A stretch of DNA of 47,042 nt. Origin: Oscillospiraceae bacterium (GTDB lineage Bacteria > Bacillota > Clostridia > Oscillospirales > Acutalibacteraceae). Below, piece after piece: positions 27,959 to 47,042 of this stretch (the first letter of the stretch is position 1; every line of letters starts with the position of its first letter). Location of the stretch: the NCBI GenBank assembly GCA_902769255.1, contig CACXOM010000011.1, forward strand, positions 1 through 47,042, read 5' to 3'. A model generated the notes under the pieces. The model was given only the letters and a program-made list of their open reading frames with translations. It was not told where the DNA came from and made no database searches. Both the position numbers and the translations under genes were made by a program.

Positions 27959-28340
27959 AAAGTTTGATAAGACTAAAAATAACGGTGTAGGGGTCGGCTT
28001 CCCAGACGACCCGCCGAAATTTGCTGAAAACATATAAATATCTTGTAGGGTAGGGGCTTGCTCCTGCCGTTTTTATTTGCACAAACTTTACACCTCATCC
28101 GAGTTGCTACGCAACCCACCTTCTCCTCAAAGAGAAGGCTTTTGAAGATTGTACTTAAGATTAAAATTTTGATAAAACTTTTCGCTTTTTGCAACGGGAT
28201 GTCAAGGATGCCATCCCCTACATTGTAACTTAAATTTTCATCAAACTATGTAGGGGTCGGGTTCTTGACTCGCCCGAATGGCCGTCACTGTTAAGGGAAG
28301 GGGGACCGCTTGCGGTGGAAGGGTTGAAAGTTTGATACGG
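27959..28340. repeat. Cluster of dispersed intergenic repeats
   Basis: Non-coding stretch behind the malic enzyme gene, built of several modules. 27959-28012 matches 46989-47042 in 49 of 54 positions and ends in a GGGTCG-N10-CGACCC inverted repeat (27991-28012). A second module has TTGTAGGGTAGGGGC near 28049. A third (about 28090-28142) has CACCTCATCCGAGTTGCTAC and a CCTTCTC...GAGAAGG hairpin. A fourth contains GTAGGGGTCGGG near 28250 and ends with another AAAGTTTGATA near 28328. Short open frames across it lack ribosome binding sites and were not called as genes. Confidence 0.8.
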
Positions 28341-33902: not shown

Positions 33903-33919
33903 AATAGAGTAAAATATTT

Positions 33920-34005
33920 TTCTTATAACTGACGGATAAATGCGGAGTTCACCGCAAAGGAGTAAGAAAAATCATATTAGAAATTTTAAGCCGACCGTCT
34001 GGGCA
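33920..34005 (+). ncRNA. ZTP (pfl) riboswitch aptamer
   Basis: P1 is TTCTTA (33920-33925) with TAAGAA (33963-33968). Inside it are ACTGACGG (about 33928-33935), helix TGCGG (33941-33945) with CCGCA (33952-33956), and AAGGAG. After a linker comes the conserved GCCGACCGTCTGGGC (33990-34004). The pseudoknot ACGG with CCGT is kept by a paired change from the usual GCGG/CCGC, which supports the fold. The class senses ZTP/ZMP, which build up when 10-formyl-tetrahydrofolate is short. It stands directly before purE, a standard target. Its last GGGC is shared with the terminator that follows, so ligand binding should turn expression on. Confidence 0.93.
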
Positions 34006-34045
34006 CACTCAACTTTTAAAGATGACAGGTTGAGTGCGCCTTTTT
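34002..34045 (+). terminator. Riboswitch-controlled terminator
   Basis: CACTCAAC (34006-34013) pairs with GTTGAGTG (34029-34036); GGC (34002-34004) can extend the stem with GCC (34038-34040) across an A-C mismatch; five T follow (34041-34045). Because the GGC belongs to the aptamer's conserved 3' end, aptamer folding and the full terminator stem exclude each other. Confidence 0.88.
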
Positions 34046-41623: not shown

Positions 41624-44600
41624 TTGGTATCAAGAGTTTTTGTTGAAAAAAAGGAAAATCTTGCTCACGAAGCGAAAGCGTTGCTTTCTCAGTTGCAGGA
41701 ATTGCTCGGAATTAAAAACCTTAAAAATATACGAATTTTAAACCGATATGACGCTGAAAATATTGATAAAGATTTGTTTGAATATGCAAAAACCACCGTA
41801 TTTTCAGAGCCTCAACTCGATAATATAAGCGAAACTTTAAACACCGATGGTTACACCGTTTTTGCGGTAGAATTTTTACCGGGTCAGTTCGACCAAAGGG
41901 CTGATTCTGCTTCGCAATGTATTCAAATTATCTCGCAGGGCGAGCGACCGGAAATAAAAACCGCCAAAGTTTATTTATTAGAGGGCGACTTAACAAGCGA
42001 TGAAATCCAAGCGGTTAAAAATTATGTTATTAACCCTGTTGAAGCGAGAGAGGCTTCGCTTGAATTGCCAAAAACTTTAAAGGCAAATTACGAAATTCCG
42101 ACAACAGTTAAAACTTTAACGGGATTTTGCGAGCTTGATAAAGCACAACTTGAACAGTTTATTAAAGATAATTCGCTTGCAATGGATTTAGACGATATTG
42201 AATTTTGCCAAAAATATTTTGTAAGCGAAAAGCGTGACCCGACTATTACCGAAATCAAAATGATTGACACTTATTGGTCGGACCATTGCCGTCATACCAC
42301 ATTTTTAACGGTTATTGACGATGTTAAATTTGAAGATGAGTTGTTGCAAAGCGCTTATGATGAATATATTGCAACTCGTAAAGATTTAGGCAGAACAAAG
42401 CCTATTTGCCTTATGGACCTTGCTACAATTGCGGTAAGAAGTCTTAAAAAACAAGGTAAACTTGAAAAACTTGACGAGTCGGAAGAGATTAACGCTTGCA
42501 CAGTTAAAATTCAAATTGATGTTGACGGCAAAGCGGAAGACTGGTTGTTGTTGTTTAAAAACGAAACTCACAACCACCCGACTGAAATTGAGCCTTTCGG
42601 TGGTGCGGCTACTTGTATCGGCGGTGCAATTCGTGACCCGCTTTCAGGCCGTTCTTATGTTTACGGCGCAATGCGTGTTACCGGTGCGGCTGACCCGACT
42701 GTTCCTGTTAGCGAAACAATTAAAGGCAAATTGCCACAAAGAAAAATTGTTACAACAGCGGCGCAAGGCTATTCTTCTTACGGTAACCAAATCGGTCTTG
42801 CAACCGGCATTGTTGATGAAATTTATCATAAAGGTTACGCTGCAAAGCGTATGGAAATCGGTGCGGTTATAGCAGCTGCTCCCGCTGAAAATGTAAGGCG
42901 TGAAAGACCTGCTGACGGCGATATTGTAATACTTCTCGGTGGAGCTACCGGTCGTGACGGTATCGGCGGTGCTACCGGCTCTTCTATGGCGCACGACTCA
43001 AAATCGGTTGAAACTTGCGGTGCGCAGGTGCAAAAAGGTAATGCGCCCGAAGAAAGAAAGTTGCAAAGACTTTTTAGAAATAAAACAGTTTGCCGAATGA
43101 TAAAACGCTGTAACGACTTTGGCGCAGGCGGTGTTTCGGTTGCTATTGGTGAATTGGCAGACGGACTCGAAATTAACCTTAACGCTGTTCCTAAAAAATA
43201 TGAAGGTCTTGACGGAACTGAACTCGCTATTTCTGAATCGCAAGAGAGAATGGCGGTTGTTGTTGAAAAAGAAAATGTCGACAAATTCTTGGAATATGCC
43301 GACAAAGAGAATTTAAACGCAGTTGCGGTTGCCGAAGTTAAAGAAAACCCACGACTTGTTATGAATTGGAACGGCCAAAAAATTGTTGATATCAGCCGTG
43401 AATTTTTAAATTCAAACGGTGCGGCTAAACATATTACAATTGCCCCCGAAAGCCCGAAATCTTTTGAAAAAGAAATAGGCGAAGACTTTATTGAAAACTA
43501 TAAAGAACTTGCAAAAGATTTGAATGTTTGCTCAAAACGCGGTCTTTCGGAAAGATTTGACTCAACTATCGGCGCAGGCACAGTTTTAATGCCTTTCGGC
43601 GGTAAAAAACAACTTACTCCTATTCAAGCGATGGTTCAAAAAATCTCGGTTGAGAAAAAGCATACTGATGACTGCTCGTTTATGGCTTGGGGTTACAACC
43701 CGTTTATCACCGAAAAAAGCCCTTATCACGGTGCTTACCTTGCGGTAGTTGAATCGGTTTGTAAACTTATCGCTTCGGGCGCAAAATTTGAAGATGTTTA
43801 TCTCACATTCCAAGAATATTTTGAATCGCCTCGAAAAGATGAAAAACGCTGGGGCAAACCGCTTGCAGCGTTGCTCGGCGCTTTTAAAGCACAAATGAAT
43901 CTTGGTATAGGCTCAATCGGCGGTAAAGACTCAATGAGCGGTAGTTTTGAAGATTTAGATGTTCCGCCGACACTTGTTTCTTTTGCAGTTACAACCGGCA
44001 AAACAAGCGATGTTGTTTCGCCTGAATTTAAAAAGGCAGGCAACAAAGTTATTCTTATTAAACCGCAAAATGATAAAAACGGCTTGCCTGAAACAGAATC
44101 TTTGTTAAAAGTTTTTGAAAAGGTAAATTCGCTTATAAAATCAGGCAAATGCGTTTCTTGCTACACTCCAACTTTAGGCGGTATTGCCGAAGCGGTTATG
44201 AAAATGGCTTTGGGTAACGGATTTGGTTTTGAATATAGCGAAAATCTTACAATTTCCGACATTTTCGGCTACAATTACGGCGCATTTCTTTTAGAAGTTT
44301 CGCCTGATGTAAACGAGGGTGTAACAGTCGGAAAAATTGTTGAAAACACAAAAGTTTCTTATAAAAATAACAGCGTTTGTCTTAAATGCTTAGAGCAATA
44401 TTATGAAGACAAATTAGAGAGCGTTTACGAATGTAATATCGATAAAGATATTAAGAAAATCGAAAATCTTTCTTATGTTGTAAACCGCAGTATCGCCCCT
44501 GCAATTAAAGTTGCAAAACCGAAAATTTTAATTCCGGCGTTCCCCGGCACTAACTGCGAATACGACAGCGCAAAAGCGGTTGAAGACGCAGGCGCAAACG

Positions 44601-45313
44601 CTGAAATTGTTGTTATTAACAATTTAAGTTCAGACGGAATTAAAAGAAGTATTAACGAATTTAGCAAAAAATTAAAACAATCGCAAATGATATTTATTCC
44701 GGGCGGTTTTTCGGGCGGTGACGAGCCTGACGGAAGCGGTAAATTTATAACCGCATTTTTCAGAAACGCCGCAATTAAAGAGGGCGTTAGCGACTTGCTT
44801 GATAACCGTGACGGACTTATGTGCGGTATTTGCAACGGTTTCCAAGCGCTTATAAAACTCGGTCTTGTGCCTTTTGGCAAAATTATTGATACCGATGAAA
44901 ACAGCCCGACTTTGACATTTAACACAATCGGCAGACACCAGTCGAAAATTGTTCGAACCCGCATTGCTTCAAACAAATCGCCTTGGCTTAAAAACACAAA
45001 CGTAGGCGACATTTACAATGTGCCGATTTCGCACGGTGAAGGCAGATTTTTGGCAAGCGATGAACTTATTAAAAAGTTGGCTGACAACGGTCAAATCGCA
45101 ACGCAATATGTTGACCTTGAGGGCAACGCTACAAATGCGGTTGCTTTCAACCCGAACGATTCTGTTATGGCGATTGAGGGCATTACCTCGCCGGACGGCA
45201 GAGTGTTCGGTAAAATGGGACATTCCGAGCGTATCGGAAGTGGTCTTTACAAAAATGTTCCCGGTGAATATGACATTAAAATGTTTAAATCCGCCGTTGA
45301 ATATTTTAAATAA
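41624..45313 (+). CDS. purL: Phosphoribosylformylglycinamidine synthase, large single-chain form
   Basis: 1229 residues. One chain carries the PurS-like N-terminal part, the FGAM synthetase core and a C-terminal class I glutamine amidotransferase, in contrast to the three-protein PurS-PurL-PurQ of Bacillus. The core shows TYWSDHCRHTTF, ETHNHPTEIEPFGGAATCIGG and GGKDSMSGSF; the amidotransferase domain starts near PAFPGTNCEYDS and has nucleophile Cys1070 in GICNGFQ and a later SHGEGRF. It turns FGAR to FGAM. Start is TTG, with AAGGAG nine bases upstream inside the end of purD. It is the last operon gene, with a terminator close behind. Confidence 0.97.
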   Translation: MVSRVFVEKKENLAHEAKALLSQLQELLGIKNLKNIRILNRYDAENIDKDLFEYAKTTVFSEPQLDNISETLNTDGYTVFAVEFLPGQFDQRADSASQCIQIISQGERPEIKTAKVYLLEGDLTSDEIQAVKNYVINPVEAREASLELPKTLKANYEIPTTVKTLTGFCELDKAQLEQFIKDNSLAMDLDDIEFCQKYFVSEKRDPTITEIKMIDTYWSDHCRHTTFLTVIDDVKFEDELLQSAYDEYIATRKDLGRTKPICLMDLATIAVRSLKKQGKLEKLDESEEINACTVKIQIDVDGKAEDWLLLFKNETHNHPTEIEPFGGAATCIGGAIRDPLSGRSYVYGAMRVTGAADPTVPVSETIKGKLPQRKIVTTAAQGYSSYGNQIGLATGIVDEIYHKGYAAKRMEIGAVIAAAPAENVRRERPADGDIVILLGGATGRDGIGGATGSSMAHDSKSVETCGAQVQKGNAPEERKLQRLFRNKTVCRMIKRCNDFGAGGVSVAIGELADGLEINLNAVPKKYEGLDGTELAISESQERMAVVVEKENVDKFLEYADKENLNAVAVAEVKENPRLVMNWNGQKIVDISREFLNSNGAAKHITIAPESPKSFEKEIGEDFIENYKELAKDLNVCSKRGLSERFDSTIGAGTVLMPFGGKKQLTPIQAMVQKISVEKKHTDDCSFMAWGYNPFITEKSPYHGAYLAVVESVCKLIASGAKFEDVYLTFQEYFESPRKDEKRWGKPLAALLGAFKAQMNLGIGSIGGKDSMSGSFEDLDVPPTLVSFAVTTGKTSDVVSPEFKKAGNKVILIKPQNDKNGLPETESLLKVFEKVNSLIKSGKCVSCYTPTLGGIAEAVMKMALGNGFGFEYSENLTISDIFGYNYGAFLLEVSPDVNEGVTVGKIVENTKVSYKNNSVCLKCLEQYYEDKLESVYECNIDKDIKKIENLSYVVNRSIAPAIKVAKPKILIPAFPGTNCEYDSAKAVEDAGANAEIVVINNLSSDGIKRSINEFSKKLKQSQMIFIPGGFSGGDEPDGSGKFITAFFRNAAIKEGVSDLLDNRDGLMCGICNGFQALIKLGLVPFGKIIDTDENSPTLTFNTIGRHQSKIVRTRIASNKSPWLKNTNVGDIYNVPISHGEGRFLASDELIKKLADNGQIATQYVDLEGNATNAVAFNPNDSVMAIEGITSPDGRVFGKMGHSERIGSGLYKNVPGEYDIKMFKSAVEYFK

Positions 45314-45321
45314 TGTAAAGC

Positions 45322-45349
45322 AAAAAAGCACCCTTTCGGGTGCTTTTTT
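45322..45349 (+). terminator. Terminator of the purine operon
   Basis: 12-bp stem AAAAAAGCACCC (45322-45333), loop TTTC, complement 45338-45349 ending in six T. It lies just past purL and may also help the convergent flavodoxin transcript. Confidence 0.92.
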
Positions 45350-45363
45350 AATATGTGTTTTTG

Positions 45364-45789
45364 TTATTTTGTTAAGCTTTCGCCTAAGGCTTTACACTTT
45401 TCAATCGCCTCGTCATCAGGAAATTCGTTGCAAATAACAAAATCGCTTGTAAAGCAAACGCCACATTCTTTACAACGCTCTTCCCAATTGCGCATCCATT
45501 CGCCGTCACCCCAGCCGTAAGAGCCGAAAAGCGCAATTTTTTTGCCTTTCAAATTCGGCTCGCACTCTTGGAACATAGGCTCAAACTCGGTCTCTTCCAA
45601 AACCTCTGCGCCCATTGCCGAGCAACCGAAAGCGATAGCGTCATAATTTTCGATTTTTAAAGCGTCAAACTCTGCCGAAGTAAGCAAATCTACATTTGCG
45701 CCTGCGCTTGTTACGCCGTCTGCTACTGCTTCCGCCATAGCCTTTGTGTTGCCTGTCGAACTGTAATAAACTACTGCTATTTTACTCAT
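45364..45789 (-). CDS. Flavodoxin
   Basis: 141 residues, short-chain flavodoxin. The FMN phosphate loop SSTGNT (10-15) and the later loop LFGSYGWGDGEW bind FMN; the middle GCSAMGAEVLEE forms the other flavin contact. As an electron carrier it replaces iron-sulfur ferredoxin in the cytoplasm, classically when iron is short. AAAGGTG stands before the ATG. It is the last of three genes after DUF2325 and DUF3793 proteins, and the shared upstream palindromes suggest metal-dependent control of the whole unit. No terminator other than the convergent purine one is evident. Confidence 0.95.
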   Translation of the reverse strand: MSKIAVVYYSSTGNTKAMAEAVADGVTSAGANVDLLTSAEFDALKIENYDAIAFGCSAMGAEVLEETEFEPMFQECEPNLKGKKIALFGSYGWGDGEWMRNWEERCKECGVCFTSDFVICNEFPDDEAIEKCKALGESLTK

Positions 45790-45810
45790 AAAAAATCACC
45801 TTTCTTGATT

Positions 45811-46362
45811 TCAAACGGCTACTGTAAGCCGTTCAATTGTTTTGCCTTTTGAATAAAGTTCTTTATAAATTTTTGTGCATTTTTTGTAATTTTCAAAACA
45901 CTTTTTCGCCCTATTCTCATCGCCGTAAACTTTCCAACAGCCTACGCATTTGGCGCACCGAGCGTTGTTTTCAATAAAGCCTTTAACATCTTCGGGCGGA
46001 TAGCCCAAAAACAGCCCGACCTCGTGCGGAAACTGCTCGTAATCCTTAAAACGATTGATAAGTCGGCAAATGCATTTGTTTGGGTTGCCATCAAAGTAGC
46101 CGTGCTCTTTTAACAAATTTAATGCGCATTTATCGGTCAAATCCTCTTTAAGTTTTTCGGGGCGATACAAATAAATTAACGCTTTGTCTTTGTAAAATTT
46201 TATCGGCAACATTAACAACCCTTTTTGCAAAAATCTTTTGTTAAACGCCCTTATTTCATCAAGCGTTTGGCTTTTGTTTTCGCAGTTGCAGGAAAACAAA
46301 CTCGCCGTTTTTATTCCTGCTAATGTGGGCGAACATTGCTCAATAATTATTTGCTCGCACAT
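45811..46362 (-). CDS. DUF3793 family protein, Cys-rich
   Basis: 183 residues and no signal peptide or membrane segment. It has twelve cysteines, including Cys25-X-Cys27, Cys97-X-Cys99 and the group Cys136, Cys139, Cys142 (RCAKCVGCW), which suggests binding of a metal or an iron-sulfur cluster. The segment HEVGLFLGYPPEDVKGF (113-129) is a conserved-looking family mark. The biochemical role of the family is not established to my knowledge. GGAGG precedes the ATG, and the start overlaps the end of the DUF2325 gene by 16 bases, so translation is coupled. Twenty-one bases separate it from flavodoxin. Confidence 0.8.
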   Translation of the reverse strand: MCEQIIIEQCSPTLAGIKTASLFSCNCENKSQTLDEIRAFNKRFLQKGLLMLPIKFYKDKALIYLYRPEKLKEDLTDKCALNLLKEHGYFDGNPNKCICRLINRFKDYEQFPHEVGLFLGYPPEDVKGFIENNARCAKCVGCWKVYGDENRAKKCFENYKKCTKIYKELYSKGKTIERLTVAV

Positions 46363-46649
46363 AATTTTCCTCCGATATGTTCATCTAAAACCCCTTTAAG
46401 AGCGGTCGCCGAACTCGAATGACATCTCGCAATTACAGCGTTTGTTCCGTTAGTTTCGTTTAAAACGCCTCTAAGCATTTTGTGCGAAACTGTGTTTGTA
46501 AAAAGCACCAACAAATCAGGACTGCCGATTTTGTTTTTTAAACTGCCGTTCTTTTTTGTAAAAACTTTCGCCCTGCAAGAATATTCTGAACAAATGTCTT
46601 TATATTTTCGCTCCATACGCTCGTTTCCGCCTACTATTACTACGCTCAT
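46347..46649 (-). CDS. DUF2325 family protein
   Basis: 100 residues. It starts MSVVIVGGNERMERKY, a small Rossmann-like opening, and has a DLLVLFTNTVSHKML strand followed by NAVIARCHSSSATALKGVL, matching the DUF2325 family of small cytoplasmic proteins with no proven function. Start assigned to the ATG eight bases after GGAG; a GTG three codons upstream is part of the ribosome binding site itself. It is the first gene of the flavodoxin unit. A GTTAGC-type palindrome lies directly before its ribosome binding site and two more lie upstream. Confidence 0.82.
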   Translation of the reverse strand: MSVVIVGGNERMERKYKDICSEYSCRAKVFTKKNGSLKNKIGSPDLLVLFTNTVSHKMLRGVLNETNGTNAVIARCHSSSATALKGVLDEHIGGKLCASK

Positions 46650-46667
46650 CTTTTTCACTCCTTTTTA

Positions 46668-46683
46668 GTTAGCGAAGGCTAAC
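46668..46683. promoter_or_regulatory. Palindromic operator, copy 1
   Basis: GTTAGCGAAGGCTAAC: arms GTTAGC and GCTAAC around four bases. It lies in the leader of the DUF2325 gene, just before its ribosome binding site, where it could act as DNA operator or RNA hairpin. Confidence 0.75.
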
Positions 46684-46699
46684 TTGTTTGTTAAATTAA

Positions 46700-46799
46700 T
46701 GCGCCCAAACTGGCGCAAAAAGTTTAAAACCGCTTTAAAATGCTGTTTTTAAGAGTTAAAAATCTGGTTTTTAGAAAGGAAATTTACTTTCTTTCTAAA
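46700..46799 (-). other. Structured leader of the DUF2325-flavodoxin operon
   Basis: Two hairpins: TGCGCC (46700-46705) with GGCGCA (46712-46717), and TTTAGAAAG (46770-46778) with CTTTCTAAA (46791-46799). Neither is followed by a T-run on the minus strand. The leader from the predicted start to the gene is about 145 bases, long for a simple operon, and I recognise no known riboswitch in it. Confidence 0.5.
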
Positions 46800-46802
46800 C
46801 AT

Positions 46803-46831
46803 ATGTTAGCATATGCTAACTGAAAAATCAA
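46803..46831 (-). promoter_or_regulatory. Promoter of the DUF2325-DUF3793-flavodoxin operon
   Basis: Minus strand TTGATT (46826-46831), 17 bases, TAACAT (46803-46808), each matching four of six consensus positions. The -10 and spacer are covered by operator copy 2, a layout typical of repression. Confidence 0.65.
46805..46820. promoter_or_regulatory. Palindromic operator, copy 2
   Basis: GTTAGCATATGCTAAC, a perfect 16-base palindrome overlapping the -10 and spacer of the predicted promoter. Its arms resemble the TTAGGTTAG-type half sites of DtxR/IdeR/MntR-class metal repressors more than Fur boxes. Regulator identity is inferred. Confidence 0.82.
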
Positions 46832-46877
46832 GCAAAAAATTGCCGATTTGAAAATTTTTGTAGATTTCGTCAATATA

Positions 46878-46893
46878 GTTAGCCTATGCTAAC
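46878..46893. promoter_or_regulatory. Palindromic operator, copy 3
   Basis: GTTAGCCTATGCTAAC, same arms as copies 1 and 2 with one central asymmetry. It lies about 60 bases upstream of the promoter. Copies 2 and 3 are 73 bases apart, about seven helical turns. Confidence 0.78.
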
Positions 46894-46925: not shown

Positions 46926-47042
46926 CCTTGTAGGGCGGTGGCATAGCTTTCGCCGGTCGAGTGCCTCGACACGCAAGACTTCGGCATAAAAGTTTGATAA
47001 AACTAAAAATAACGTTGTAGGGGTCGGATTCCTATACGACCC
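46926..47042. repeat. Dispersed intergenic repeat, right copies
   Basis: 46926-46997 is the inverted counterpart of the element at about 81-152: TTGTAGGGCGG, GCCGGTCGAG, CTCGACAC and CTTCGGCAT occur in the same order. It runs straight into a second module, 46989-47042, which matches 27959-28012 at 49 of 54 bases and ends at the window edge in a GGGTCG...CGACCC inverted repeat. No coding region is seen in 46900-47042. Confidence 0.78.

Follow-up and report, generated by a model that had tools for sequence, protein, structure and literature searches.

DtxR/IdeR regulators have a third domain and bind operators of the form GTTAG-N1-CTAAC, and Met10 and Cys102 are metal-site residues of DtxR. Equibactin-type ECF/ABC systems import iron. 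An ECF importer adjoining an equibactin-like gene cluster is described in PMC12709192. Fur governs the feo genes and the flavodoxin gene fldX in C. difficile and C. acetobutylicum, and flavodoxin was proposed to replace ferredoxin (PMC6311696).

The window analyzed here is the whole stretch of 47,042 nucleotides of one contig from an Oscillospiraceae bacterium (genome G000). It carries, at the contig end, a minus-strand unit of three genes encoding a DUF2325 protein, a DUF3793 protein, and a short-chain flavodoxin, in that order. Based on the sequence comparisons below, this unit is quite probably an iron-starvation operon under a DtxR/MntR-type repressor that has DtxR-like ligands in relatives.

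The candidate regulator of the relatives, a short DtxR, is approximately 125 aa long compared to 226-230 aa in most solved DtxR/IdeR chains, a length that implies lack of the third domain, and the half-sites of the operator are spaced by six bases. The metal-site Cys, Glu, and His line up with those of DtxR/IdeR, as does Met in 24/66 sequences, and, again as in DtxR/IdeR, iron uptake genes are among the putative targets. By sequence, E. coli MntR is the closest solved relative, and the TAGC-N4-GCTA core of the mntH and mntS sites is shared. However, E. coli MntR has Asp at the first and Glu at the fourth ligand position, whereas the short DtxRs mostly have Met or Asn at the first (52/66) and Cys at the fourth (65/65); unlike in the MntR system, the operator turned up ahead of feo and flavodoxin genes and not ahead of Nramp genes. 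The ECF-S-like protein and the ABC pair behind shared operators in this genome may parallel equibactin-type import, with the S component scoring below the NCBIfam cut-off. As in the clostridial Fur regulons (PMC6311696), flavodoxin and feo genes would stand under one iron regulator. In contrast to the Fur and the different box described there, G000 has no detected Fur, its operator is GTTAGY-N4-RCTAAC, and DUF2325 and DUF3793 belong to the unit.

The sequence-only reading of this DNA had proposed three overlapping or closely spaced genes, and this was borne out by the ORF list and the family matches (PF00258, TIGR01753, PF12672, and PF10087). The flavodoxin matched PF00258 at 3.2e-20 and belongs to TIGR01753 with 142.8 bits at a cut-off of 123. 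The DUF2325 and DUF3793 frames share 16 nt, and 21 nt separate DUF3793 from the flavodoxin gene. The mechanical ORF list gives DUF2325 as 46347-46658 (minus strand) with a GTG start at 46658. The ATG at 46649 is the better start because the orthologues begin with MSVVIVGG and an AAGGAG, read by eye as the ribosome-binding site, precedes it. The convergent gene on the other side of the flavodoxin is purL-type (by eye), and the scan of the region scored 11 terminator-like sites compared to 2.5 in shuffles. The coordinates are collected in Table 1.

Table 1. Features of the DUF2325-DUF3793-flavodoxin unit (window positions).
Feature	Positions	Strand	Basis
Terminator-like hairpin, between flavodoxin and convergent gene 41624-45313	45321..45350	both strands score	scan
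Flavodoxin, short-chain (141 aa)	45364..45789	-	TIGR01753 above cut-off, PF00258
DUF3793 gene (183 aa)	45811..46362	-	PF12672 7.5e-58
DUF2325 gene (100 aa + stop)	46347..46649	-	PF10087 1.3e-30; ATG 46649 start by orthologues
Operator 1, GTTAGCGAAGGCTAAC, leader, 18 nt upstream of DUF2325 ATG	46668..46683		exact match
Operator 2, GTTAGCATATGCTAAC, possibly over -10 (by eye only)	46805..46820		exact match
Operator 3, GTTAGCCTATGCTAAC, upstream	46878..46893		exact match

Three perfect copies of GTTAGC-N4-GCTAAC, including one in the leader and one upstream, had been reported from the sequence, and all three are exact. With up to two mismatches the window count was 4, which is not unusual (reached in 8/100 shuffles). 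The same reading placed the -10 of a shared promoter beneath a palindrome, and here it failed: the scan of the region called no promoter with a -10 beneath any palindrome, and its one promoter-like site lies elsewhere (3.2 in shuffles). By eye, TTGCTT-16-TATGCT at the middle site is loosely promoter-like. Two of the three palindromes scored as terminator-like hairpins in the scan. The contig stops 149 nt past operator 3. Short repeats of the GTAGGGG type were seen at window positions 27987-28253 and 47017-47042, one copy being the contig end itself, and this repeat may have broken the assembly there.

The sites were counted across the assembly of this genome (1,791,303 bases, 35 contigs, 99.7% complete). 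The exact form GTTAGC-N4-GCTAAC occurred seven times, compared to none for the reversed control and 0.07-0.08 expected, and the wider form of the relatives, GTTAGY-N4-RCTAAC, occurred nine times (control 0, about 0.5 expected); the expectations were computed from the composition of 160,314 bases of the genome. A shorter core with one mismatch was uninformative (75 versus 94 in the control). All nine sites of the wider form were located. Three belong to the DUF2325-DUF3793-flavodoxin unit. Two precede an ABC pair (contig C12), and two precede a Trep_Strep/MptD-like (ECF-S-like) membrane protein (contig C25; PF09605 3.3e-29, TIGR02185 of NCBIfam below cut-off). One, a perfect palindrome, precedes two short ORFs of 92 and 134 aa (contig C19, L024 6271-7087), which had no Pfam or NCBIfam match and are possibly the remains of one gene. 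On contig C1, the ninth site and three relaxed ones surround feoA-feoB. The feoA promoter TTGACT-17-TATTAT (by eye) has a relaxed site directly downstream and makes a better case than the loose match at the unit itself. For a second FeoB gene, fused to FeoA (contig C14, L333 3417-5762), the 12 kb covered contained no site.

The conservation of the operator was analyzed in three sets of DUF3793 loci. DUF3793 was present in 29/120 genomes of a family sample and 89/295 of an order sample; the sets comprised 29 family loci, including this genome, 24 order loci, namely those new among the 30 listed, and the best 80 of 586 loci. The 80-locus set may share species with the two samples, and the sets are not independent. 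For the family and order loci, the upstream region was measured from DUF2325 wherever DUF2325 leads the unit. The motif could have been missing before orthologous units, yet GTTAG-N6-CTAAC was found upstream of DUF3793 at 25/29 family and 22/24 order loci (47/53, reversed pattern 0/53) and at 63/80 loci of the best 80 of 586 (stricter form 52, reversed 0/80). GTTAGY-N4-RCTAAC itself occurs in 95/120 genomes of the family sample. Ruminococcus bromii, a relative available in culture, carries both the unit and its sites (L230).

In the 80-locus set, the stricter form had 87 sites in 47,923 upstream bases compared to 35 in 810,756 other bases, and the 29 other base orders of the half-site together gave one site. 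An unbiased count of 5-base palindromes ranked GTTAG-N6-CTAAC first with 63 loci; the runner-up, with 36, falls within this palindrome. The half-sites keep a constant distance of six bases, since GTTAG/CTAAC at the other spacings from 0 to 10 gave at most two loci. Among the 17 site-less loci of the 80, seven have a site with one mismatch and one lies at a contig edge (L180). At L182 and L242, feoA-feoB directly precedes the DUF3793 unit, and it is feoA that has a site in front of it. L223 was scored site-less with a mechanical DUF2325 start that is too long, and its site sits just upstream of the likely ATG. Six loci (L181, L188, L205, L213, L221, and L246) had no near site even at up to two mismatches, including L188, despite feoA-feoB directly before its unit.

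The neighbors of DUF3793 recur as well. DUF2325 lies directly upstream at 28/80, 11/29, and 12/24 loci and flavodoxin directly downstream at 45/80, 23/29, and 21/24 loci of the 80-locus, family, and order sets, respectively; the 80-locus counts rest on mechanical starts and are low. The 80-locus set has FeoB in 14/80 and a DtxR-type gene in 14/80. Within 4.5 kb in that set, ABC genes related to the C12 pair were found at 22 loci, HMA-domain proteins at 17, an AraC-type regulator at 14, and a methyltransferase at 13, with the families of these neighbors assigned from single examples. A DtxR-type gene flanks DUF3793 at 4/29 family and 6/24 order loci. In one stretch of a relative (G051), the order is short DtxR, site, feoB, site, DUF3793, flavodoxin, and second DtxR.

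Among 75 listed sites of 22 genomes, at least 30 lie upstream of feoB, at least 11 of a DtxR gene, at least 8 of DUF3793, and at least 41 of any of these. Of 30 motif loci listed, a local HMM recognized FeoA or FeoB in 13, Pfam adds FeoA in L135, and others have ZIP, HMA, DtxR, or DUF3793. The idea that the sites mark metal genes thus stood in part: many precede such genes, but 34 of the 75 listed sites have no listed feoB, DtxR, or DUF3793 neighbor, and some sites stand ahead of genes with no known tie to metals, namely those for an alpha/beta hydrolase and for an NMT1-type protein. In L132 (1-1823), the sites separate feo genes from a divergent gene for a class-V aminotransferase (PF00266), NifS/IscS-like by eye, behind which lies a frame that is NifU/IscU-like by eye. 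Fe-S assembly may belong to the regulon in that locus.

A short DtxR was present in 27/29 DUF3793 genomes of the family sample, and both proteins tested (L094 and L092) passed the cut-offs of PF01325 and PF02742. It had been suggested that sites of this kind would precede feoAB or a DtxR/MntR gene. They precede feoA-feoB in this genome, and in relatives GTTAG-N6-CTAAC is found no more than 400 bp upstream of the regulator gene in 15/44 short-DtxR rows, compared to 0/16 lower-scoring classical MntR-type rows and none for the reversed control; the remaining 29/44 short-DtxR rows lack a site at this distance, and L088 and L149 represent a single gene. The motif was present in 93/111 genomes with a PF01325 match compared to 2/9 without (Fisher p 0.0002; 120 genomes), a coarse comparison in which PF01325 also matches a MarR protein of this genome. 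A short DtxR/MntR-type protein is likely the reader of the sites in relatives. The sites before feoAB and short-DtxR genes, together with the superfamily of this likely reader, support the proposal that the operator is a DtxR-class metal box.

The metal sensed is most likely iron. This is favored because the ligand positions differ from MntR, FeoB was found in 109/120 genomes and Nramp above cut-off in only 9/120, and the operator lies before Nramp genes at 0/12 loci that passed the cut-off (as much as 1.5 kb of flank scanned per locus, four weaker matches set aside). It is improbable that the regulon is instead a manganese regulon, in which MntR answering to Mn2+ would bind the operator and the feo genes would be bystanders. 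Such a reading draws on likeness to MntR: among solved structures, E. coli MntR comes closest to the short DtxR (2h09, 3.2e-25; the aligned part reads as K-12 MntR), followed by other MntR, DtxR, and IdeR chains, and the best NCBIfam match of the short DtxR is an MntR model, though below cut-off (100 versus 153 bits). In addition, the mntH upstream region of E. coli K-12 contains ACATAGC-CTTT-GCTATGT and that of mntS contains TATAGC-ACAG-GCTATA; both sequences share the TAGC-N4-GCTA core with the operator, and MntR binds there. However, the six aligned ligand positions, D,E,H,E,E,H in E. coli MntR and in 13/19 lower-scoring sequences, are changed in the short DtxRs. Cys replaces Glu at the fourth position in all 65 scorable sequences, one more being gapped there, and the first position has Met in 24, Asn in 28, Asp in 13, and Glu in 1 (n = 66). 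In DtxR, the residues aligned to the first and fourth positions are Met10 and Cys102, and with the rarity of Nramp this speaks against manganese. That the palindromes are due to chance, or are RNA hairpins without a regulatory role, is scarcely credible: the hairpin scores of two window palindromes and the unremarkable count of the shorter core point that way, but the excess of exact sites over expectation and, strongly, the conservation before orthologues at a fixed spacing, also before feo and DtxR genes, argue against it.

The regulator gene itself was not found in G000. The genome had no match to PF02742 (DtxR C-terminal domain) or to Fur (PF01475, E 0.001; 13/14 control genomes positive), and no short DtxR at 1e-5; the best match, at 1.1e-4, was a 153-aa frame on contig C2 that is MarR-like by eye. 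Within the genus, the three other genomes each have a short DtxR. G047 also had no full short DtxR, though a site precedes its DUF3793; it encodes a protein of 273 aa that matches DtxR in part (1.6e-11; L259 4132-4953) beside an ABC-type pair (by eye). In two congeners (L254 5858-7601 and L255 3279-5061), the short DtxR lies just downstream of citrate synthase (by eye) with overlapping frames, as if co-transcribed. In G000, the citrate synthase (L091, by eye) has a MarR-type gene directly upstream and an htpG-type gene (by eye) downstream. Either an assembly gap hides the regulator gene, or the sites are read by another protein. It is rather unlikely that another regulator, e.g., a MarR-type protein, replaced a lost DtxR and reads the sites in G000. 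The lack of a detected DtxR would fit this, as would the MarR-type gene beside the same citrate synthase gene that the short DtxR follows in the congeners. However, the sites of G000 keep the consensus of the relatives, and a gap is the simpler explanation in an assembly of 35 contigs with a contig end so close to the third site.

The iron-starvation reading of the unit can be set out from the observed gene order, the sites with their conservation and neighbors, and the regulator class and ligand residues in relatives. When Fe2+ is plentiful, the short DtxR/MntR-type repressor of the relatives would sit on GTTAGY-N4-RCTAAC at the promoters. When iron drops, the repressor would be released, and feoAB for Fe2+ import, ABC/ECF-type transporters, and DUF2325-DUF3793-flavodoxin would be expressed. 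Flavodoxin would then substitute for the iron-containing ferredoxin, and DUF3793 and DUF2325 would most likely aid the low-iron state, perhaps as flavodoxin partners. The same scheme may hold in G000, where the regulator gene was not found.

A broader account is tentative, and we hold it at somewhat less than even confidence. An MntR-type lineage may have swapped to the iron ligands of DtxR, kept the MntR-type operator core, and become the iron master regulator of gut Clostridia, where the absence of Fur was checked in G000 only. Its regulon would include a previously undescribed DUF2325-DUF3793-flavodoxin low-iron module, with DUF3793 working with flavodoxin, and some members would keep the regulon after loss of the regulator gene. 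With the iron-starvation reading, two widespread families of unknown function would gain a concrete physiological setting, low iron, with a switch, a motif, and a probable sensor named. The regulator would also offer a clear example, within the DtxR/MntR superfamily, of metal ligands that changed (Asp/Glu to Met/Asn and Cys) while the operator core was conserved. No paper on such a DtxR regulon in Clostridia, or on DUF3793 or DUF2325 in a low-iron role, was found in the open-access literature.

The proteins of the unit were compared in alignments of DUF3793 from 65 of the 80 loci plus the window and of DUF2325 from 25/29 ORFs plus the window. The DUF3793 protein of the window has the twelve Cys that had been counted in it, with the CxxCxxC group reading CAKCVGC. 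These cysteines are not conserved as a set, and so the idea that they form a metal or Fe-S set was not supported. The three Cys of CxxCxxC are kept in 16, 57, and 44 of 66 rows and in 2, 20, and 16 of 29 in a wider set; because this group is not conserved, a fixed Fe-S cluster in DUF3793 appears unlikely. The sole nearly invariant Cys is C162 (66/66, and 27/29 in the wider set). Thus, the initial proposal of an iron-sparing or metal-sensing module stands as a metal regulon, most likely for iron, by comparison of feoAB, flavodoxin, and the DUF3793 unit, but without the metal-binding cysteine set of DUF3793.

DUF3793 is conserved around FPHEIGxFLGYPxxDVxGF and WKVY. Its model was of high confidence (pLDDT 90.3), which dropped around the Cys-bearing loop of residues 131-150 (62 and 70), and fold searches gave no clear match among solved structures. 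The DUF2325 model (pLDDT 84.3) is a small domain with a predicted Rossmann/flavodoxin-like fold.

Elsewhere in the window, a ZMP/ZTP riboswitch (RF01750, 60 bits) was detected at 33915-34011 on the plus strand, just 5' of a purine-like gene cluster (gene names by eye) that extends to 45313.
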